Shown one piece after another: positions 32,956 through 51,391 of a stretch of 51,391 nucleotides of DNA (within the stretch, counting starts at the first letter, position 1; each line of letters starts with the position of its first letter). A program made the translations under genes and the position numbers. This DNA is from a virus. Where the stretch lies: positions 1 to 51,391 of the IMG/VR virus record IMGVR_UViG_3300013307_000007; one strand, given 5' to 3'. The notes below the pieces were generated by a model, which saw only the letters and a program-made list of their open reading frames with translations, ran no database searches and had not been told where the DNA came from.

Positions 32956-33145
32956 TGAGTGTCCTCTCTAGTTTGTATTCACCGAAGAATACCAGGTCGA
33001 AGCCCTTCGTCCTCTGGTCGCGGATGTACATCTCCGCACGCATCTGGTCAACCCTGTACACAGTCTGAACTCGCTTGTCGCCTGTCCTGAACATCGTGAT
33101 CTTGTACAGCTTCGATCGGCTCGGTGCTGGTCCTCTAGCGCCCAT
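32948..33145 (-). CDS. Small basic protein
   Basis: 65 residues, beginning MGARGPAPSRSKLYKITMFR. Basic, likely alpha/beta, unrecognised. Its start overlaps the polymerase stop (TAATG-type), so it is co-translated with the replicase. Confidence 0.65.
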   Translation of the reverse strand: MGARGPAPSRSKLYKITMFRTGDKRVQTVYRVDQMRAEMYIRDQRTKGFDLVFFGEYKLERTLNG

Positions 33146-35619
33146 TAGACTTCACCCCAGTTGTTGCCGATCTTGACGTCTGTTTTGAACGTAACGTAGT
33201 CGCCCACGATCTTCTGAGCGGACTCGATCATTCGATTCGACACGAGCTCACCAACCCATTCAGCGTCGTCACGGTGGCATTCTACAAGCAGAGCGTCATG
33301 GATAATGTTACGAATATGTCCAATGCCTCTAAGGTCCTTGCGAACCTCTACAAGAGCACCGAGGCACATGTCAGACGCAGTCGACTGAGGCAGGAATGCC
33401 AGAGCCTCGTTCATCACGTTGTGCATGTTCTCTTTAGTGATCAACATGTAGCGACGGTGTCGACCGTAAGGTGTGATGAGGTCTTGTCCTGCTAAGACAC
33501 GAGCGCGGGTGTCCTCCCGAAACTTAACGATGTCGGGGATAACGGAGAAGAATCGTTCCATGCCCCGAGATGCTTCTGCACGGGATATTCCAAACTCCGT
33601 TGCAATGCTGCCAACTTCTCTTCCGTAGCCGACACCGTACACGTAAGCCTTAACTCGGATACGAAGTTCTTTCCAGGCAGACGGTACCATGTCCATCGCG
33701 TTGGCATTGGGGTAGAGTACAGGAGTGAGCTCATCAAAGAAGTCACGTTCGGCGTCGTTGAGGAGGGCTCTAAAGTACTCGTCTTGTGCCAGGAAGCATA
33801 GCACCCGCAACTCAGCCTGAGCGTAGTCCACGTGGACAAAGACATTCTCAGCTCTGGATGGAACATAGAGGCGACGAATCCGTGCCTCTCTCGGCTGGTT
33901 CTGCAGGTTTGGATTCCGACAAGCGAGCCGGCCGGTTGTAGTTCCATGCAGAAGGTAGGTCGGGTACACCCTACCCCCGTATAGGCGCTTACGGATACCC
34001 TTGACGTAAGTTCCATACAGCTTTGCCTCCCTTCGGTGCTCGAGCAGCTTGTTCAGGAACGCTACGACCTCTTCGTCCTGCTTTACGAAGGAATGCTCCA
34101 GCATCAACCGAAGCGTATCCTCGTTAGTAGTGTCTGTAGCGATTCGATGGTCAGCGAGGTACTTCTTGACCTGCAAAGGCGATCGTGGATTCAGTCCTCC
34201 TGACTTGTCGTAATGGCCAACCCTTGCGATCGTCGGTGTAACAATTCGACTAAGCTCGGTCTCAATTTCGTCAAGGGAGGATAGATAGGCGTCAGTGAGC
34301 TCGTCAAGATAGGCACGATCCACTGAAATACCGTTGAGCTCCAGATACATGAGTTGGTTGGATGCCGCCACCAGATAGTCATGGACTTGTCGTAGCTTCC
34401 CACCCTGTGCGGTGTCTCGATCGAACCGTGCGCTAAACATTTCGTACAGCGCGTATGTGCAAGCAACGTCGTAGGCGTTGTACCTGTATAGGAGATCCCG
34501 AGGGATAGCTCCATATCCGATGCCAGGTCCAACATATCGTTTGATCTCGTCGTCATACTGTGGCGCTCCTAGGTACTCGACTGCCATGAACTTCAAACCG
34601 TGAATGCCTGGCCTCTCGTCAAACGTATACGAGGCTAGCATCGTGTCGAACCAAAGCTCTAGTCCTCCGACGATGGGGTAGAGACCGGCAAGATCGAACT
34701 TGCCATTTTGAGCAACGAGTCGGTGGGCTCGGAAAAGATCTCCAAGTCGACCACGAACCTGTTGCGAGCCCATGACACCTTCAGCAAGTACGAGGACCCT
34801 ACCTCGAGCATAGCCGAGTCCCACACAGAGCATGCCGTAGTGGTTTGGATGGTCGAAAGCGGTGTCTTTCTCAATGTCGACCTCAATGTCGACAACAAGT
34901 GGCCCCTCTCTTGCAGTAAGCTCTCGATCGATCTTGTCGAGCCATCCGAGGGCTGCCAGTTCATCGTCAACGACGTCGAAGTGAGGTGGATTCCATACGA
35001 CATTAGGTGTACTTACCTTTCCGATGTCGGTAACGATGTAAGGGAAGAGATCAGCTTGACGCAAAGCCGCTGCAGGATGGAGCGTCGGTATAACACGAAC
35101 TCCAGGGAGAGATTCACTTCTTCGTCCGGGGCCCACGCGAAGCTTCGTGACACCAGTTTGCCCCAGAATTGACTGTGCGGCCGAGTTACCGAGAGCGATA
35201 ACTGTTTCGACGTCACACCCTTCTCGTCCCAGCTCTGCAACCAGTCGAGGTTTGCACGCCGCAATAGCTGCCTGCGAAGGAGTCGCGTTGTCAACTGGTC
35301 GACATAGGCAAGCATTCGTGAGGAATACTTCCGAGCGCTTGATCCCGTGGTGCTGGAGGACTTGGTTGAGGAGCTTCCCGCTCGGCCCAGTAAAAGGTAC
35401 ACCCAGTCTTGCTTCCTGGACGCCCGGCGCTTCTCCGACGATGGCGAGGTCTGCTTTGTCTGGCCCGAAGCTTGGGACATACCTTCCTGTTGTCCGGAGG
35501 GGACAGTCTTCGCAGTGGGCGAGCGGGTGCTTTCGTACTGCTCTAGAAACATCCTCCACGGCAGGTCCTGTTCTTGCCACTCCTGCCACAACCTCTGCAG
35601 CTCCTGGTTGTTCACTCAT
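33145..35619 (-). CDS. UDG-exonuclease-DNA polymerase I fusion
   Basis: 824 residues. Residues about 30-195: family-4 uracil-DNA glycosylase, with GEAPGVQEA at 62-70, HPAAALR at 181-187 and four Cys for an Fe-S cluster (C36, C39, C104/106, C122). Residues about 240-395: 3'-5' exonuclease with DIEVD, NGKFD and YNAYD. Residues about 420-824: PolA polymerase with VDYAQAELR (597-605), KAYVYGVGYG (657-666) and HDALLVE (774-780). All sites look intact. Tyr661 sits where T7 polymerase has Tyr, the dideoxy-tolerant form. ATG overlaps the DpdA stop (ATGA). Confidence 0.9.
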   Translation of the reverse strand: MSEQPGAAEVVAGVARTGPAVEDVSRAVRKHPLAHCEDCPLRTTGRYVPSFGPDKADLAIVGEAPGVQEARLGVPFTGPSGKLLNQVLQHHGIKRSEVFLTNACLCRPVDNATPSQAAIAACKPRLVAELGREGCDVETVIALGNSAAQSILGQTGVTKLRVGPGRRSESLPGVRVIPTLHPAAALRQADLFPYIVTDIGKVSTPNVVWNPPHFDVVDDELAALGWLDKIDRELTAREGPLVVDIEVDIEKDTAFDHPNHYGMLCVGLGYARGRVLVLAEGVMGSQQVRGRLGDLFRAHRLVAQNGKFDLAGLYPIVGGLELWFDTMLASYTFDERPGIHGLKFMAVEYLGAPQYDDEIKRYVGPGIGYGAIPRDLLYRYNAYDVACTYALYEMFSARFDRDTAQGGKLRQVHDYLVAASNQLMYLELNGISVDRAYLDELTDAYLSSLDEIETELSRIVTPTIARVGHYDKSGGLNPRSPLQVKKYLADHRIATDTTNEDTLRLMLEHSFVKQDEEVVAFLNKLLEHRREAKLYGTYVKGIRKRLYGGRVYPTYLLHGTTTGRLACRNPNLQNQPREARIRRLYVPSRAENVFVHVDYAQAELRVLCFLAQDEYFRALLNDAERDFFDELTPVLYPNANAMDMVPSAWKELRIRVKAYVYGVGYGREVGSIATEFGISRAEASRGMERFFSVIPDIVKFREDTRARVLAGQDLITPYGRHRRYMLITKENMHNVMNEALAFLPQSTASDMCLGALVEVRKDLRGIGHIRNIIHDALLVECHRDDAEWVGELVSNRMIESAQKIVGDYVTFKTDVKIGNNWGEV

Positions 35620-36392
35620 CCCACCCACCCCAGCATCGTCTGAACGTTCTTCTCACTGCACTCAGCCTGCTCCTGCTGGTACCGAAGGTCAAAGTAGTTC
35701 TTAGGTCGACTGATCTGCTTCGTGTCTTCCAGAAACTCGCGCTGCCAGCCATACACGAATGGCATCGATGTGTCGTAGCCTCGGACCCACGGCACCTGTT
35801 GCGCGGCTTCTTCCAGTTCAGTGCACCACAGGGGGTTGGCGCCCAGGAAATGTAGAGCCGGAAGATCGCTGCCATACTCGTTCTGCAGAGCCTTGGCTAG
35901 AGAGATACGTGCGTACGGGTTAGCGAGAGTGCCCAGCAGGTGGCGAGGGAGGCCAATGCTGGTGAGACTGGGACCCCATTCGGTTATAAGCCACTTGGTG
36001 TAGCTCCAGATCTCGTCGAGCCTCTTACCTTGTGCTACAGCCATAAACTTGAACGCCGTAGGGTTGTAGGCACTCCTGTTAAGGTAGTGCATAAAGCCTT
36101 CAAGTGCACGTATCGAGCCCTCGGCGTCCTTGATCATGTCTGGGATCACGATCTCATCCGCGTGAGACGCTACTGCGGCGCGCATGAGATCATCAGCAGA
36201 GCAGGAGTAGCCTTCTGCAGCTCCGTTGTCCAGGATGTAGTACTGCTTACCAGTTGGCTGTGACTCCTTCAATGAGGAGAACATTCGACGGTATTGCGGG
36301 TACTTGAACCAGAGCTGTGGCAGCAAGAGCTGATAGTCAGTCCGTGCATGGTAGCCAAACAGGCATGCTGGCGGAATCAGTGCAAGCTTCAT
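35616..36392 (-). CDS. dpdA: DpdA-like DNA 7-deazaguanine transglycosylase
   Basis: 258 residues, TGT-like barrel. ILDNGAAE (D55), EIVIPD (D85), IGLPR (146-150), HFLGANP (181-187) and RGYDTSMPF (D207) follow the pattern of phage DpdA proteins that replace guanine in DNA with preQ0 or a derivative. The Cys zinc site of tRNA transglycosylases is not seen. The start is the ATG at 36392, with GGAAGGTGG upstream. It sits at the end of the queuosine-precursor operon and overlaps the polymerase gene. Confidence 0.85.
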   Translation of the reverse strand: MKLALIPPACLFGYHARTDYQLLLPQLWFKYPQYRRMFSSLKESQPTGKQYYILDNGAAEGYSCSADDLMRAAVASHADEIVIPDMIKDAEGSIRALEGFMHYLNRSAYNPTAFKFMAVAQGKRLDEIWSYTKWLITEWGPSLTSIGLPRHLLGTLANPYARISLAKALQNEYGSDLPALHFLGANPLWCTELEEAAQQVPWVRGYDTSMPFVYGWQREFLEDTKQISRPKNYFDLRYQQEQAECSEKNVQTMLGWVG

Positions 36393-36496
36393 GCTACTGC
36401 CACCTTCCAGAACATGATGCAAATACACAACATAATGAACACCACAAAGGTAAAGAACAGCGCAGCGCCTACGTAGACATACCAGGGTTCCTTCAT
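36389..36496 (-). CDS. 35-residue membrane peptide
   Basis: One long hydrophobic helix (WYVYVGAALFFTFVVFIMLC). ATGA overlaps at both ends place it firmly in the operon between an NTP-PPase-like gene and dpdA. Function unknown; it may serve mainly to couple translation. Confidence 0.6.
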   Translation of the reverse strand: MKEPWYVYVGAALFFTFVVFIMLCICIMFWKVAVA

Positions 36497-36795
36497 TGTC
36501 CCCACCCTTCCTTCGTTCCTTTGAACGGTTCACTCAGGCTCGCCCCTGAGTCTTGTAGTGCTGCACCAAGCAGTAGGATCTTGATGCCTGTCATCGTTGC
36601 GTAGTTGCGAAGGTCTGCAACTTCCTCGACCGCCATACGCAGAGTGTCGTTGGTCAAGAAGGTGTACTCACCGTACTCAGCCTGACCCAACGTGTGCCGT
36701 TCACGACAAAGATCTTCGAACGCTTGCGCAGCAAGAGCAACGGCAGCCTTCTCGTTCTCAGTTACTTCCGGCAACGACGTCTCGTTCGGCTTCAC
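36493..36795 (-). CDS. NTP-PPase-like small protein
   Basis: 100 residues, all-alpha. LRMAVEEVADLRNYATMTG carries the E-E-x-x-D pattern of MazG-like nucleotide pyrophosphohydrolases, but the first acidic motif is weak. GTG start, AGGAGGG upstream, 38-base overlap with the gene before it. It may clean up nucleotide pools during base modification (inference). Confidence 0.6.
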   Translation of the reverse strand: MKPNETSLPEVTENEKAAVALAAQAFEDLCRERHTLGQAEYGEYTFLTNDTLRMAVEEVADLRNYATMTGIKILLLGAALQDSGASLSEPFKGTKEGWGQ

Positions 36796-37153
36796 GAACC
36801 CTCCTCTGCAGTATGAATCGCTGTTCGTTGACTATACGCTTGCGCTCGTAGGCTCGCTGCAAGTCGATGCCCATCAGACCAGCCAGCTCGCATAGGTATG
36901 TGTATACATCTGCCAGCTCATCGGCCAGTGCAACTCGTGTTGCAGGTGCGTTGTAGTCAAGCGAGCCGCGGTCGATCTTCTTAACAAGGTTGGCAACCTC
37001 TCCAGCCTCTCCGCACAGTGCCAGAGCATGGTGGCGAAGTGCATCGAACGTCTTCAGTCCGATTGACAAGTCGCCGAACCAGCGATAGCTGTCCTCCAGA
37101 CACTGAATAGAAGTCTTGCCAACCTCACTTAGCTCCGGCTTGCTGGGAGGCAT
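36758..37153 (-). CDS. MazG-like nucleotide pyrophosphohydrolase
   Basis: 131 residues. LALCGEAGEVANLVKKIDRG gives the E-x-x-E motif and LADELADVYTYLCELAG the E-x-x-D motif that bind Mg and the triphosphate. MazG-like enzymes hydrolyse (d)NTPs to monophosphates. AAAGGAA precedes the ATG. Substrate unknown; place beside the deazaguanine genes suggests a dNTP pool role. Confidence 0.8.
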   Translation of the reverse strand: MPPSKPELSEVGKTSIQCLEDSYRWFGDLSIGLKTFDALRHHALALCGEAGEVANLVKKIDRGSLDYNAPATRVALADELADVYTYLCELAGLMGIDLQRAYERKRIVNEQRFILQRRVREAERDVVAGSN

Positions 37154-37331
37154 CTTGTTCCTTTCTAGGTACGAGTGTCAGTGTGATGTAGTCAATAGTA
37201 GGACCTCTGCCGGCATTTACACCCGTTGGCTCGGTCGCCACTCGCTGACCCTTAACTTGATGCTTGTAGAACACATCGGAGTGTCCATCCTTGTACGCAA
37301 CCGTTACATGGTCGATGTCGTTCATCTTCAT
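37125..37331 (-). CDS. Small hypothetical protein
   Basis: 68 residues, beginning MKMNDIDHVTVAYKDGHSDV, beta-rich. ATGA overlap with the FolE gene and a 29-base overlap with the MazG-like gene. Unrecognised. Confidence 0.65.
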   Translation of the reverse strand: MKMNDIDHVTVAYKDGHSDVFYKHQVKGQRVATEPTGVNAGRGPTIDYITLTLVPRKEQDASQQAGAK

Positions 37332-37894
37332 TTGATACCTGCCATGAATTCCGCCTTTGCAGTACGAGTGTGGTCCCCGAATACTCCACGCATTGTCGAC
37401 GTGCGAGTTACGACTCCGGCCACTTCCACGCCACGTAGAGCCATGCACATATGTTCAGCATCCAAAACAACGGCCAGACCCAGCGGGGCCAAGTTCTCCT
37501 CGAGGAAGTCTCCAATTTCGTTGACGAGATCCTCCTGGACCCAAAAGCCCTTAGAGCAGAATTTGACAGCCCGAGCAAACTTACTAAGGCCAGCAATGAG
37601 GCGATCAGGTACATAGCCGATGTATGCCTGTCCGTAGAAGGGAAGGATGTGATGTGCACAGACAGTGTAGAACGGAATAGGTCCAAGTGAGATCATCTCC
37701 GTCGTTTCGTTCGCCGGGAACGTTGTAAAGTTGAATGGCTCACGCTCAGTCATCTGCTTGAGAGCCTGCACGAATCGCCTCGGCGTGTCCGCCCTGTGGT
37801 TCTCGTCTACACGATCCCACGCTTCCAGAGAGGACAACAAGTGTTCCGCTGCTTGCTCCTGTGTTGCAGACAACTTATAGTCTTCCAGCTTCAC
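37328..37894 (-). CDS. folE: GTP cyclohydrolase I (FolE)
   Basis: 188 residues. Converts GTP to dihydroneopterin triphosphate, the first step of preQ0 synthesis. CAHHILPFYG (79-88) and EHMCMALRG (147-155) give the zinc ligands (C79, H82 and C150), with GLSKFARAV between. GTG start with GAGGGGG upstream, one-base overlap with queE (TAGTG). The length matches short FolE types. It is embedded between queE and small genes in the operon. Confidence 0.9.
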   Translation of the reverse strand: MKLEDYKLSATQEQAAEHLLSSLEAWDRVDENHRADTPRRFVQALKQMTEREPFNFTTFPANETTEMISLGPIPFYTVCAHHILPFYGQAYIGYVPDRLIAGLSKFARAVKFCSKGFWVQEDLVNEIGDFLEENLAPLGLAVVLDAEHMCMALRGVEVAGVVTRTSTMRGVFGDHTRTAKAEFMAGIK

Positions 37895-38586
37895 TAGATC
37901 CCCCTCTTGTTTCGGTCCCAGATATGGTTGTGTACTTGCACGTTCAGCCTCCAAGGCAGTCCATCGTTGAGGACCCACTCGACTAGTGTTCCGTTGTCAA
38001 GGTGTCCCCAGGCAACGCCGTAGAACACTTCGAGGTCAGGACGATCCTTGAGGAACTCCTCATACAGGTTCGTCGCATGGTTGAAGTCGTTCACGTCCTT
38101 GATGACGAACTTGACTGCGTCGCCTTCGCCGAGGTGTTTGAGGTTCTGCAGGCGCATCTCGTTGGCGTAGTCCTCACCAGAGCCTGGAAGCTTCCAGTCC
38201 ATGACGAAGTTGATCCAATCGAAGGCCCACTCCGGGTACTCTAGGGTTCCATTGGAGAAGCACTCGATGGTCCGGAACCCCCGTGTAGCCAGCCCTCGAC
38301 AGAGTTCGAAAAGATCCTTGCTTGGCTGGAGGAAAGGCTCTCCGCCAGTGAGGCAGACCGAATGAGTTCCTTCTCCTGCCGCTTCGCTGACCCTATCCAT
38401 AACCTCCGTAACACTTGACTTGACCCATTGCATGCGAAAAGCCGGGTCGATTGCATGTTGAGTATCACAGGGCCAACCTGGACAGCGTAGGTTACAACCA
38501 CCGAACCGCAAGAACACTGTTGGTCTTCCAACTCGTGGTCCTTCTCCTTGGACACTCTCATACACCTCATCTACTCGTAGGACCAT
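37894..38586 (-). CDS. queE: QueE, 7-carboxy-7-deazaguanine synthase
   Basis: 230 residues. Radical-SAM enzyme turning carboxy-tetrahydropterin into 7-carboxy-7-deazaguanine. The N-terminus YESVQGEGPRVGRPTVFLRF is typical. The cluster motif is CNLRCPGWPC (C31, C35, C40), that is C-x3-C-x4-C rather than the usual C-x3-C-x2-C. TGGEPFLQP follows. The start overlaps the queD stop (TGATG). Confidence 0.88.
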   Translation of the reverse strand: MVLRVDEVYESVQGEGPRVGRPTVFLRFGGCNLRCPGWPCDTQHAIDPAFRMQWVKSSVTEVMDRVSEAAGEGTHSVCLTGGEPFLQPSKDLFELCRGLATRGFRTIECFSNGTLEYPEWAFDWINFVMDWKLPGSGEDYANEMRLQNLKHLGEGDAVKFVIKDVNDFNHATNLYEEFLKDRPDLEVFYGVAWGHLDNGTLVEWVLNDGLPWRLNVQVHNHIWDRNKRGI

Positions 38587-39023
38587 CAGAGGCCATCCGC
38601 TGCGTATGACCATATGGCTGAGTTGACTGCTGTCTCTTGAACGTATACACAGGTGATTGCACTACTAACTTGCACATACGCAACCCGTGCTAGTACTTTG
38701 GCTACTGCCTCAACTGTCGGCCAAGGCAGATTCTCAGCAGCAAGGTTCGCACCGAAGACAAATACCTTCGAGCCATCCTGCCTGAACGCTTCGAGGAGCT
38801 TGTCATCCTCGCCGAGCATCGTCCCATGATCGAGATAGGTGTCGACCCAGTCACGAAGTTCTCTCTTCATTACACCATACTCGAGAGTCAGACCGTTCTC
38901 GTCCATATCTTGATCAAAGGACCATTCCACCTGCCAACTGTGCCCGTGGATGCTCTGACACTTTCCGGGTAGGAAAGGCAGCCGATGAGCCGTCTCGAAG
39001 TTATGTTTCACTGTCACGATCAT
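38586..39023 (-). CDS. queD: QueD, 6-carboxytetrahydropterin synthase
   Basis: 145 residues. FETAHRLP and KCQSIHGHSW hold the zinc His ligands and the catalytic Cys; a C-terminal CVYVQET segment follows. Makes carboxy-tetrahydropterin from the FolE product. ATGA overlap with the gene upstream. Confidence 0.9.
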   Translation of the reverse strand: MIVTVKHNFETAHRLPFLPGKCQSIHGHSWQVEWSFDQDMDENGLTLEYGVMKRELRDWVDTYLDHGTMLGEDDKLLEAFRQDGSKVFVFGANLAAENLPWPTVEAVAKVLARVAYVQVSSAITCVYVQETAVNSAIWSYAADGL

Positions 39024-39361
39024 TCGGTGTACCCTCCTTCATCCCAGATGGTCAGTGCGATTACAGAGTACACCGCGCGGTCCAGCAACGTGTCACGAAT
39101 AGGCTCATTCGCCGGCTTCGCAGTACGACTCTTCCACAACCTGGGCAGGAGAATCCGAAGACGCGCCTGCTTCGTGGATATAAGTGCCTCAACTGCATGG
39201 CCTCCAGTGAGAGAGAGTTGATAGGCAGAGTCGTAAAAGTTCTGGTTGGGGTGATCGTCTCCTGCATAGTCATGCCCCTTCGCTCGATGCGTCTTCACCA
39301 TCTGAATGAGAACGGCCTCGAAGTCGTTGTCTGGGTTCAGTGTGATCTCAGGCGTTGGCAT
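39020..39361 (-). CDS. DUF1599-like nucleotide-modification-associated protein
   Basis: 113 residues, all-alpha: KTHRAKGHDYAGDDHPNQNF then a helix ending IRDTLLDRAVYSVIALTIW. This is the pattern of DUF1599 proteins (NTP-PPase-like), often linked to phage base modification. GGAGG precedes the ATG. Its place between queC and queD supports a link to the pathway. Confidence 0.7.
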   Translation of the reverse strand: MPTPEITLNPDNDFEAVLIQMVKTHRAKGHDYAGDDHPNQNFYDSAYQLSLTGGHAVEALISTKQARLRILLPRLWKSRTAKPANEPIRDTLLDRAVYSVIALTIWDEGGYTE

Positions 39362-40145
39362 CTGCGGTCCTCCAGAACTCTTCATCGGCATAGATGGTGT
39401 AGTCCTGCCCATCAAACTCGTCCTGTGTGACTGCCTGTGCCTGCGCAATGGCTTCCAGGCGTTCCACACACGTGCCGCACTTGCCGCAGTGGATGTCTCC
39501 ACCCTGATAGCACGACCAGGTGTCTTCGAAGGGCATTCCGTTGATGATGGCCTGCTTTGCGATGTACGCCTTCGTCTCGTAGATGAACGGCGTCAGGATC
39601 GGCTGATGAAGCGACAGGTTGCCGAAGCCCTGGTTGCCATATGCAGCTGCCTGACTGAGAGCTGTGATGAACTCCGGACGGCAGTCAGGATAGATGAAGT
39701 GGTCGCCTGCATGCACAGCTGTAGCGACGCACGTCGCGTTCCGAGCAACTGCTACACCGAGCGCCAGGCTTAGCATGATCATGTTACGGTTCGGAACAAC
39801 CGTTGCCTTCATGTTCTCCTGCGCGTAGTGACCTTCTGGCACAGCGTTTCCAGACACAAGGCTACTGCCAGACTCACCAAGCAGATCAGTGAGTCCAGAA
39901 GCTCCAATGTCCAGGATGTCGTGACGGAGCCCAAGCTTGCTTGCTGTGCGCACTGCATACTCCAACTCCTTCTTGTGTCGCTGTCCGTAGTCAAAGCTCA
40001 ACAGATCCAGACGCACCTCCGGGTACACTGCACGCAACATGTACACCAGGGATGTCGAGTCCATGCCTCCGCTGAACACAACCACACAACTCTCGGTTGG
40101 CTTCTGCCTTACTGCCGTCTTGACGACGAGTGGGTCTTCACTCAC
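39348..40145 (-). CDS. queC: QueC, 7-cyano-7-deazaguanine (preQ0) synthase
   Basis: 265 residues. PP-loop SGGMDS at 25-30 activates the carboxylate with ATP; VVPNRNMIMLSLALGVAVA is the next conserved block; SCYQGGDIHCGKCGTC gives four zinc cysteines near the C-terminus. Makes preQ0. There is no extra GAT domain. GTG start with GGAGGA eight bases upstream, within the end of the primase gene. Confidence 0.92.
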   Translation of the reverse strand: MSEDPLVVKTAVRQKPTESCVVVFSGGMDSTSLVYMLRAVYPEVRLDLLSFDYGQRHKKELEYAVRTASKLGLRHDILDIGASGLTDLLGESGSSLVSGNAVPEGHYAQENMKATVVPNRNMIMLSLALGVAVARNATCVATAVHAGDHFIYPDCRPEFITALSQAAAYGNQGFGNLSLHQPILTPFIYETKAYIAKQAIINGMPFEDTWSCYQGGDIHCGKCGTCVERLEAIAQAQAVTQDEFDGQDYTIYADEEFWRTADANA

Positions 40146-42390
40146 TTGTAATTCCTCCGGGTGTCACAGGGTAAAGGTTGTAGCCTCTACCGGATGCCTG
40201 CTTGGTAATAAGTCCTCTGTCTTCCAGGGTTGAGATAACCGATGCCGCCTCTCTCGAATCCAGGTGGTACGACTGCATGATTCGACTCTTGGTGATACCC
40301 GGCCGAAGCTGGATAGCTCCATAGATAGTGTCGAACTTCCGCTCTGTCTGACTCTTGCCTACCGTGCTCATGACGTCCTTAACGAAGAAGCGCCACTGCT
40401 CACCATAGAAGATGGCACGTAGCAGGTGCGCTTCCGTTACAACCACTTCCTCCTGTCTTGTTTCCGCAGCGGAAAGTAACACAGCCGCCTTCAGCACGCT
40501 CTTGCTCAGTCTGTCAAATGTAGGTGTCATGACATCTGCACGCTCACTCGACAAGCCTGCCTGCAACATCTCGCTCTCGAACTTGTTATAGCGAACCCAG
40601 GCATCCTCTGTCAGACGCGCCTGGAAGATTTTCTGCTGCTGAATCGTGATCTCACTATTCTTGACCTGCATTGTTTCGGTGACACGGTAGTGCTTGAACA
40701 ACCCTTCGAGTTCCTCCCGAATTGCATCGGAGGCCCCTGTGGTCTTTGGACTGGGAGGGCCCAGCGGTTTGACCTTGGTGATATCGCTCTCTGCCGTAAT
40801 GAACACGAAGCGAGGCATGAAGCCTGAGCTTACCTGTTCGAACGTCAAGATCGATGTCACCTTTTGCTTAATGCCACCTGCAAACACCACTAGAATAGGC
40901 TCTTTGACTTCAATGGTGTCCTTGCGCAGTACTCTCTTGAACATCTTGCCATCGTAGAGCTTGGTCAGGAGTTCAGCCATCCCCGCCATGTAGTCCTTCT
41001 TGGTCATCTGTTCCAAGAGACCACTGAACTCGTCACGAAGAAATACCGAAGGTCTGCCAGGACGGGTAGCCAGTGTAGTCAGCAAGCCCTCGATCGAGCC
41101 ATCCGTAGCAAGTACCGCGTCCGGATCGATCTCCGCTACCATGTCCATCGCGATGTCCATTGCGGTTGACTTTCGGGTCAACGTCGTGTCTGCGAGGATC
41201 ATGAACCACAGGTTGGGGATTATAGTTCCGAACGACGTCGGTAAACGGACAGCTCCCGCAATAAGTGCCGAGAGTGCCACAAATGCGCCCGCCTGATGAT
41301 ATTGAGGTGCAGCGTCGCCCAGAGATCGTGCCCATGTTATGTACCTCTCGATGAATGTGTCTGGCTGCTGAAGAACCAGCTCTCTTTCCCCTTCGGACAT
41401 GAGTGGTAGGAAGTCCTCGTCGTACACACCGAATGCTTCCATATGCTTATGGTGGTGAACTTCTGCACGACAAACCTCCTGCCATAGGAATCGAGGATCC
41501 TTGCCGTCGCGAGCGTACTTATTACAGGCCGCATCTCTGCAAACTACGTACACCTCTGTGCGAGTCATACCCTGTTCGAAGAGAAGCATCTGCATGTTCC
41601 AGAGCTTCTCGCTCCAACTCGTTACCTGCGGTGTGTCCGTGTACATCGCCCAGACCATCGGATTGATCGTGCGACGGTAACGTTGCAGTACTGCCATACC
41701 TCCCATCTCCCTGGCTTCGTCGCTATCTCCGATGACAGCCTGACAGTCTTGCTCCGAAGGCATTGGAATGCTCAGGTACGAGAATCCATCCGCTTCCGGA
41801 TATTCTTCGAACTCGTCCATCCTGTACGCAGTACGTGTGAGTTCAACGATCTCGACCGAAGGCAAAACCTTAGCCTTCATGTACTTGTAGTTCGACGTCC
41901 AAGGCACACGAAGCAACTGCGTTAGGTCCCAACCACTTCTATCTGCTCCCTCTGCTGCATGCCGATAGGCAATTCGTCTGCTGAGAGCTTCAACGTCCTC
42001 TGGTTCCGGATGCCTGTCTAGACACCAGTAGGCCTGGTACCGACCTGGAGAAGACTCGATGATCACCGACGGATGTACAAGCAGCTTATCCGGGCGGCAC
42101 CGATCCAGATCGGCCCAGGCTACTGGCGTGCTGCTGACGTTGTCTTTGACTCTCTCGGGAGCCGATAGCAACTGTGGGCAGAACCAAACGTTGTAACCCA
42201 CCAAGTGCTCGTTGACACTTTCCAGCAGCAAGTCCTCTTCCTCGGGCCACTGAAAGAACTCCTGTTGGAAGTCCTTCTTGTTGCTCGAGTTGCCGAACGC
42301 CAGGCACACGTAACCAGACTCCCGGCCGAAGATGAGACGAAAGAACACCTGCCGTCTCGCATCGGCGACCTCGGAGATCTCTGCTGGCAC
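40138..42390 (-). CDS. PrimPol/DUF3987 primase-helicase
   Basis: 750 residues. An N-terminal archaeo-eukaryotic primase-like domain (WADLD at 92-96, then SSPGRYQAYW and DLTQLLRVPWT) is followed by a DUF3987-type ATPase (about 345-600), whose P-loop region ILADTTLTRKST lacks the usual glycines. The C-terminus is a winged helix (SRIMQSYHLDSREAASVIS). It likely primes and unwinds phage DNA. GTG start, GAAAGG upstream. It sits before queC. Confidence 0.82.
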   Translation of the reverse strand: MPAEISEVADARRQVFFRLIFGRESGYVCLAFGNSSNKKDFQQEFFQWPEEEDLLLESVNEHLVGYNVWFCPQLLSAPERVKDNVSSTPVAWADLDRCRPDKLLVHPSVIIESSPGRYQAYWCLDRHPEPEDVEALSRRIAYRHAAEGADRSGWDLTQLLRVPWTSNYKYMKAKVLPSVEIVELTRTAYRMDEFEEYPEADGFSYLSIPMPSEQDCQAVIGDSDEAREMGGMAVLQRYRRTINPMVWAMYTDTPQVTSWSEKLWNMQMLLFEQGMTRTEVYVVCRDAACNKYARDGKDPRFLWQEVCRAEVHHHKHMEAFGVYDEDFLPLMSEGERELVLQQPDTFIERYITWARSLGDAAPQYHQAGAFVALSALIAGAVRLPTSFGTIIPNLWFMILADTTLTRKSTAMDIAMDMVAEIDPDAVLATDGSIEGLLTTLATRPGRPSVFLRDEFSGLLEQMTKKDYMAGMAELLTKLYDGKMFKRVLRKDTIEVKEPILVVFAGGIKQKVTSILTFEQVSSGFMPRFVFITAESDITKVKPLGPPSPKTTGASDAIREELEGLFKHYRVTETMQVKNSEITIQQQKIFQARLTEDAWVRYNKFESEMLQAGLSSERADVMTPTFDRLSKSVLKAAVLLSAAETRQEEVVVTEAHLLRAIFYGEQWRFFVKDVMSTVGKSQTERKFDTIYGAIQLRPGITKSRIMQSYHLDSREAASVISTLEDRGLITKQASGRGYNLYPVTPGGITSE

Positions 42391-50997: not shown

Positions 50998-51275
50998 CTC
51001 GCTGCCCTCTCTTTCGCTTCCTTCTCGGCCAGGTATGCGTCTGCAGATGCCACATCGATGACCTTACGACCACAGATGCAAGGCTCTTCCTTGATGTACC
51101 CACGCTTGATGTAGTAGTACACCTTCTGCGGGTCTTTGATGCCCTTGTACTTGGCGTATTCCCGAACGGACATCTTCGCTGTGCCATTGAGGGCCGCCTC
51201 GTGTGCGTCCGCTAGCTCGTCAGCCTCGATGGCCTTCCTGAGCTCGTCCGCATTACCTAGCCTTGCCTGTGCCAT
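50994..51275 (-). CDS. Excisionase-like HTH protein
   Basis: 93 residues. An acidic N-terminus, then SVREYAKYKGIKDPQKVYYY and IKRGYIKEEP, the pattern of MerR/Xis-type winged helices, and a Lys/Glu tail. AAGGAG precedes the ATG. It follows the gene at 36-392 across the circle junction. With no integrase in the genome it is more likely a regulator or DNA-architecture protein than an excisionase. Confidence 0.78.
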   Translation of the reverse strand: MAQARLGNADELRKAIEADELADAHEAALNGTAKMSVREYAKYKGIKDPQKVYYYIKRGYIKEEPCICGRKVIDVASADAYLAEKEAKERAAR

Positions 51276-51391
51276 GAAGACTCCTTCCGAGTCCTGAGAG
51301 GGCTTACTTCTGAATCGGCTCGTAGCTCACTTCGAACATGCCGTTGTAATCGAGGAACGTGAGTAGGTTAGTTCCCTTCTTGAGCTGTCCA
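51269..51391. repeat. Terminal redundancy, right copy
   Basis: Exact copy of bases 1-123. It carries the start codon and AAGGAG ribosome site of the HTH gene at 50994-51275 and the 3' end of the gene at 36-392, showing that the leftward operon runs unbroken across the junction. Confidence 0.97.
51304..51391 (-). CDS. 3' end of the gene at 36-392, repeated
   Basis: Part of the terminal redundancy; the 5' portion lies beyond the window end and is present intact at 36-392. Confidence 0.9.
   Translation of the reverse strand, partial: GQLKKGTNLLTFLDYNGMFEVSYEPIQK

Follow-up and report, generated by a model that had tools for sequence, protein, structure and literature searches.

A preQ0 operon with a TGT-fold transglycosylase and an adjoining PolA gene in an IMG/VR virus genome

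With the minimal gene set FolE, QueD, QueE, QueC and DpdA, a 7-deazaguanine base is inserted, a step for which DpdA is essential in Escherichia phage CAjan (PMC6884629). High levels of dADG modification are reported for Campylobacter phages, which Hutinet et al. (2019) listed among the phages without a recognised DpdA (PMC6884629). The IMG/VR virus genome record IMGVR_UViG_3300013307_000007 (51,391 bp), the whole of which was analysed and is referred to here as the window, encodes this pathway in a single leftward (minus-strand) operon comprising queC, queD, queE, folE, a MazG gene and a dpdA-like gene for a transglycosylase of tRNA-guanine transglycosylase (TGT) fold, followed by a gene for a PolA-type polymerase (Table 1). 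The operon probably makes 7-cyano-7-deazaguanine (preQ0), which the transglycosylase would swap for guanine in DNA, likely at high density, leading to evasion of restriction. The record is probably complete, because its positions 1–123 are exactly repeated at 51269–51391 as a 123-bp direct terminal repeat.

Pathway genes and the TGT-fold transglycosylase

Family searches and motif reading identify the whole set of FolE, QueD, QueE and QueC in the operon, all of them intact. QueC contains SGGMDS and CYQGGDIHCGKCGTC, possesses the ATP and zinc motifs, scores above its equivalog cut-off and carries no GAT domain in the family searches of the protein; its gene starts with GTG, preceded by the Shine-Dalgarno sequence GGAGG. 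The best-supported starts of queE (ATG, 38586) and folE (GTG, 37894, with the Shine-Dalgarno sequence AGGGGG) lie inside the longest open reading frames (ORFs) and overlap the stops of queD and queE, respectively. Overlapping stop/start pairs also join queC to a 113-aa gene, this gene to queD, folE to a 68-aa ORF, and dpdA to polA. These overlaps and the Shine-Dalgarno-like sequences seen on reading the start sites show the operon to be translationally coupled. It reaches past 35616–40145 on both sides, into a primase/helicase-like gene upstream and a polymerase gene downstream. When the region was compared with the phage collection by megablast, no match was obtained.

A previous sequence-only reading had placed the four pathway genes and a DpdA-like gene in one overlapping minus-strand operon, and strong family matches were obtained for them at those places. 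Its interpretation of the set as a preQ0 pathway with a transglycosylase also holds, the set being complete and recurring in the same order in Youna2 and BSTP12. The absence of QueF and GAT-QueC, which it had claimed as well, was confirmed, as models for QueF and class II glutamine amidotransferase find none in the whole record and gave matches in control genomes (ArcS was not searched for). A preQ0 transporter and a canonical TGT were searched for in the record and none was found, and the window contains no tRNA genes. The QueE of the window has the spacing CX3CX4C (CNLRCPGWPC) in place of the radical-SAM spacing CX3CX2C, and is one of 11 QueE proteins with this spacing in loci of the transglycosylase subfamily described below.

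The 258-aa transglycosylase matches no Pfam or NCBIfam family, and its sole PHROG match is annotated as 'unknown function'. Its AlphaFold2 model, which was built from an alignment of 45 relatives, has a pLDDT of 96. The structural search recommended by the sequence-only reading returned the TGT fold: the best Foldseek matches in the PDB are tRNA-guanine transglycosylases (E 5e-5), and all 50 rows listed by VIA-align are TGTs, with archaeosine TGT at Z 16.5. Among viral models, a protein of Cellulophaga phage phiST is nearest (TM 0.82), and the DpdA2 of Vibrio nt-1 is among the next matches. As modelled, the protein is a TGT-type barrel with two catalytic aspartate positions. D55, D85, H181 and D207 sit at the positions of the TGT/DpdA catalytic motifs; D55, N56, H181, G184 and D207 are invariant in both family alignments, and E60 and D85 show little or no variation. 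The motif order (LDN/LDSG, VxQG, HxLG, DT/CD-xxxP) is colinear with DpdA1 and E. coli TGT. By hhalign, D55, D85 and D207 are in register with 9g DpdA and partly with E. coli TGT, where LDN, HxLG and xDTSxP align with LDSG, HGFG and CDSS of 9g/CAjan DpdA, and VxQG, HFLG and DTSMP with IIQG, YLMG and DCVMP of E. coli TGT, each at a weak score. Because single hhalign scores are weak, the DpdA-like assignment is drawn from fold, motif order and gene context combined.

A canonical tRNA-guanine transglycosylase was rejected, as PF01702, the TGT model, does not match the protein even with the threshold relaxed to E 10, and the sequence lacks the CxCxxC motif of the C-terminal zinc site (CxCxxC...H). 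A Pfam scan of 34 members of the family likewise found no TGT match, and a PDB sequence search with DpdA profiles returned merely weak, unrelated matches. The protein groups with phage transglycosylases and not with the tRNA enzymes; grouping with the latter is what the sequence-only reading had named as refuting its claim.

On sequence grounds, the transglycosylase belongs to the short CP220/phiST/immuto/BSTP12 branch and not to the 9g/CAjan type, and the earlier DpdA-like call is to be specified in this sense. An iterated hidden Markov model (HMM) unites the window, BSTP12, Youna2, CP220, immuto, phiST, StAshley and 77 IMG/VR loci in one family, with E values of at most 5e-44 for CP220, immuto, phiST and StAshley, and at most 8e-45 for CP220, phiST and immuto. 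The IMG/VR relatives were reached from a three-member alignment, the window DpdA by itself having matched nothing in IMG/VR, and tblastn with the BSTP12 relative led to Campylobacter phages, Cellulophaga phages and the protein of Flavobacterium phage immuto that bears the annotation 'DNA guanine transglycosylase'. This branch is presumably the DpdA3 subfamily, and its loci are called DpdA3-type here. DpdA1 (9g type) was rejected, with no tblastn match to 9g or CAjan and an hhalign probability of 4%. DpdA2 (nt-1 type) was also rejected, as the hhalign probability is 18% over 97 columns and His181 is invariant in the family of the window, while DpdA2 lacks the conserved histidine (PMC6884629). 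Of two HVTV-1 proteins aligned with the transglycosylase by hhalign in a comparison directed at DpdA4, one gave a partial match and the other none. In a tree of 34 members, the window is nearest to locus L004, with no strong support for a small clade. Two loci carry tandem dpdA-like paralogues (L029:5137-6972 and L050:5911-7406), and one copy of each pair has an altered LDN motif (LDT in L029, IANVG in L050); this change suggests that the altered copy may be a non-catalytic partner.

Gene neighbourhood of the transglycosylase

The polA gene, whose start overlaps the dpdA stop, recurs next to related transglycosylase genes. Among 52 non-redundant, well-flanked relatives, a PolA gene is found within 6 kb of dpdA in 45 and within 300 bp in 34; within the same 6 kb, MazG is present in 22, a gene resembling a deoxynucleoside monophosphate (dNMP) kinase in 12, and either or both in 29. 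The order dpdA then polA in one operon, as in the window, recurs in many IMG/VR loci. Three loci (L019, L021 and L023) each encode one protein that is matched by the MazG as well as the dNMP-kinase profile, these natural fusions being backed by Pfam/PHROG in L019 and L023. By comparison, the 31 DpdA1 clusters include two with PolA within 6 kb and none within 300 bp, one with MazG (counted over every cluster member), none with a kinase and thus one with MazG and/or kinase; at 50% identity all of the DpdA1 set falls into one cluster, so these counts are not phylogenetically independent, the contrast is one between two groups rather than between independent events, and Fisher values computed from it are not to be taken as probabilities. 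None of ten DpdA2 loci has PolA, MazG or a dNMP kinase nearby. The conserved pairing of dpdA with polA, accompanied by MazG, a kinase or both, may be a less appreciated aspect of these systems. The HD domain was also considered as another enzyme acting on the pool; a single-seed HMM for it matched immuto only.

The polymerase contains an N-terminal family-4 uracil-DNA glycosylase (UDG) domain with the motifs GEAPG and HPAA. Such a domain is present in 60 of 67 long PolA ORFs of DpdA3-type loci, and the UDG-PolA architecture occurs in 67 phage records, including Bacillus phage SP-15.

The sequence-only reading had described three nucleoside triphosphate (NTP) pyrophosphatase-like genes in the operon and had considered this less usual. 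One of the three is supported as MazG, with the acidic motif GEAGEV...ELAD (ExxE...ExxD) retained, homologues in DpdA3-type loci and a Pfam score of 21, slightly below the 22-bit cut-off. As noted above, MazG is common in operons of the CP220/phiST/immuto/BSTP12 branch, so the supposed rarity does not hold. It is also not exclusive to the DpdA3-type branch, since two DpdA1-type loci carry MazG between queD and folE (L123:4616-4984 and L131:4107-4457). The other two genes show no relation to MazG by hhalign. The 100-aa protein has no Pfam match and no detectable family, and its low-confidence model (pTM 0.45) has no PDB match; R33, G37, Y41, G42, E58, D61, N64 and Y65 are invariant, and it carries the motif ExxDxxNY. 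The 113-aa protein, from a family of three known members, resembles NTP pyrophosphatases by motif only; phrog_1485 (unknown) is matched by this protein at E 8e-4 and by its L016 homologue at 3e-8, while DUF1599 ('nucleotide modification associated domain 1') is matched weakly (E 0.007) by its L004 homologue alone. For the small 68-aa ORF (37125-37331), the longer form of the ORF gave no family match.

Table 1. Coordinates of the operon and flanking genes in the window
Feature	Position	Strand	Evidence or remark
Family A DNA polymerase, N-terminal family-4 uracil-DNA glycosylase domain	33145..35619	-	PF00476 E 1e-52; PF03167 E 8e-28
dpdA-like base-exchange transglycosylase, 258 aa, TGT fold	35616..36392	-	AlphaFold2 model, structure matches, conserved motifs
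Conserved 100-aa helical gene	36493..36795	-	Directly upstream of dpdA in 22/75 related clusters
MazG-type all-alpha NTP pyrophosphatase	36758..37153	-	PF03819 E 4e-4; phrog_229 E 1e-8
Small 68-aa ORF overlapping folE stop	37125..37331	-	ORF call only
folE (GTP cyclohydrolase I)	37328..37894	-	PF01227 E 1.5e-42; phrog_2197 E 2e-45
queE (7-carboxy-7-deazaguanine synthase)	37894..38586	-	phrog_2076 E 1.3e-34; TIGR04349 E 2e-40
queD (6-carboxytetrahydropterin synthase)	38586..39023	-	PF01242 E 2e-20; phrog_2389 E 3e-32
113-aa gene between queC and queD	39020..39361	-	Motifs KGHDYA...NF, K.ARL, D..LDRAVY
queC (7-cyano-7-deazaguanine synthase)	39348..40145	-	PF06508 E 1.1e-53; TIGR00364 174.8 bits, cut-off 150.3
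Primase/helicase-like gene	40138-42390	-	Upstream of queC

Proposed mechanism and rival explanations

FolE, QueD, QueE and QueC would convert GTP to preQ0, which the short transglycosylase would exchange for guanine in phage DNA, with a covalent enzyme-DNA intermediate on Asp207 and Asp55 as the acid/base. By analogy with DpdA systems tested by others, DNA bearing the inserted preQ0 would escape recognition by host restriction enzymes. Trimming of the nucleotide pool and copying of the modified template may fall to the MazG-type pyrophosphatase and the adjacent PolA, respectively. A high density of modification is probable, because the transglycosylase falls with the CP220/phiST/immuto proteins and not with the sparsely modifying 9g type. 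As QueC looks complete, the base is most likely preQ0 and, failing that, ADG; the sequence-only reading had also chosen preQ0, and its choice is kept here as a prediction because either preQ0 or ADG is predicted for minimal-set phages (PMC6884629).

Several points weigh against this reading. BLAST and tblastn from the 258-aa protein find neither 9g nor CAjan DpdA, and the 4% probability given above refers to the very 9g enzyme that has been tested biochemically, so that the tie to this enzyme comes from fold, motif order and gene context and not from sequence. The nearest solved relatives of the window MazG are dCTP pyrophosphatases (iMazG 2q73, E 4e-7; dCTPP1, E 1e-6) rather than the dGTP-specific MazZ. 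The DpdA3 name and its tie to complete guanine replacement reportedly go back to Cui et al. 2023.

The linkage of DpdA, PolA and MazG/dNMP-kinase genes could also be read as a route at the level of the nucleotide pool, as in Z phages, in which MazG would convert dGTP to dGMP, the base would be swapped on a free deoxynucleotide, and a dNMP kinase and PolA would complete the way to guanine-free DNA. The three MazG-kinase fusions in DpdA3-type loci fit such a route, as does the CP220 homologue, which is flanked by an HD-domain/ATPase gene and a thymidylate kinase. There are precedents as well, as MazZ converts dGTP to dGMP and PolA is present in all Z phages except S-2L (PMC8342488), and a modified dGTP for the polymerase has been proposed in Campylobacter phages (PMC6884629). 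The route nevertheless seems unlikely: the substrates of known TGT-family enzymes are polymers, no dNMP kinase turned up in the window operon, 23 of the 52 loci have neither MazG nor a kinase within 6 kb, a DpdA1 cluster also carries MazG, and the window MazG is closest to enzymes acting on dCTP. MazG genes are in any case common among phages, and dADG phosphates were reportedly not seen in infected Campylobacter. That transglycosylase, PolA and MazG/dNMP kinase form a unit giving essentially guanine-free, preQ0-containing DNA in this manner is likewise unlikely. Known TGT chemistry favours exchange on the polymer; the gene linkage to pool enzymes and PolA leaves some room for exchange on nucleotides.

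A second alternative retains the system and changes its product, with ADG or CDG in DNA as a result of an incomplete or bypassed QueC step. Both are intermediates of the 7-deazaguanine pathway, the prediction for minimal-set phages cited above includes ADG, and dADG has been reported for CP220-type phages. The completeness of QueC, with both the ATP and the zinc motifs present and a score exceeding its equivalog cut-off, argues against this possibility, which we regard as rather improbable. Among the neighbours of other DpdA3-type genes are three Vut_1 (vitamin/preQ0 transporter family) proteins and three proteins with class II glutamine amidotransferase domains, and these suggest different end bases or preQ0 uptake in some of those loci.

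A host tRNA target, with the operon boosting queuosine-type modification for better translation, agrees with the TGT fold and with the VxQG motif, which is common to TGT and not to 9g DpdA, and was suggested for phages having the pathway without DpdA (PMC6884629), but is very unlikely, as there is no PF01702 match, zinc motif, QueF or tRNA gene, the transglycosylase gene is coupled to that of a replicative polymerase, and the relative CP220 is from a group reported to have dADG in DNA.

Comparison with known systems

The operon of the window joins a complete preQ0 gene set to a transglycosylase branch linked to dense or complete guanine replacement. The branch forms a conserved module with UDG-PolA, accompanied in about half of the sampled loci by MazG or a dNMP kinase, fusions included, so that the question of whether complete 7-deazaguanine replacement occurs before or after replication can be tested with few purified enzymes. 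The profile and the active-site signature can also be applied to phage genes currently annotated as hypothetical, NadR, integrase or polynucleotide kinase.

These are the annotations of the dpdA genes (~25% identity to that of the window) in Weizmannia phage Youna2 and Bacillus phages BSTP12 and BSP7, which share the identical order primase, queC, small gene(s), queD, queE, folE, dpdA-like gene and polA. They differ in the slot immediately upstream of dpdA, which is taken by a P-loop dNMP/thymidylate-kinase-like gene in these phages and by MazG plus the 100-aa gene in the window. CP220 gp056, immuto DpdA and phiST CGPG_00065 belong to the same transglycosylase family at ~20% identity, the phiST model having the same fold, and are associated with HD or MazG, kinase and PolA genes. 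Immuto has an additional QueF and a formyltransferase gene, phiST has no QueC annotated near dpdA, and the Que genes of CP220 lie ~9 kb or more from dpdA.

The DpdA1 systems of Enterobacteria phage 9g and CAjan resemble the window in having folE, queD, queE, queC and DpdA in one operon, with colinear catalytic motifs but no BLAST match. They have FHxGE where the window has VxQG, they adjoin PolB and clamp genes whereas the window dpdA adjoins PolA, and MazG and kinase are found in 1 and 0 of 31 clusters, respectively. Palindromes of 6 bp occur in the window at 0.93 of the Markov expectation and are depleted in 9g (0.71), which is merely suggestive of weaker restriction-driven site loss than in 9g and was not taken as evidence, since the hosts of the two phages differ.

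The Z-genome clusters (PurZ, MazZ, DatZ and DpoZ; S-2L and phiVC8) likewise combine a MazG-like pyrophosphatase, and usually a dedicated PolA, with the base-making enzyme. The PolA of the window is not a DpoZ, its score of 43.6 bits lying below the cut-off of 500, and the chemistry and the base of these clusters are different, with the transglycosylase of the window standing in the place of PurZ.

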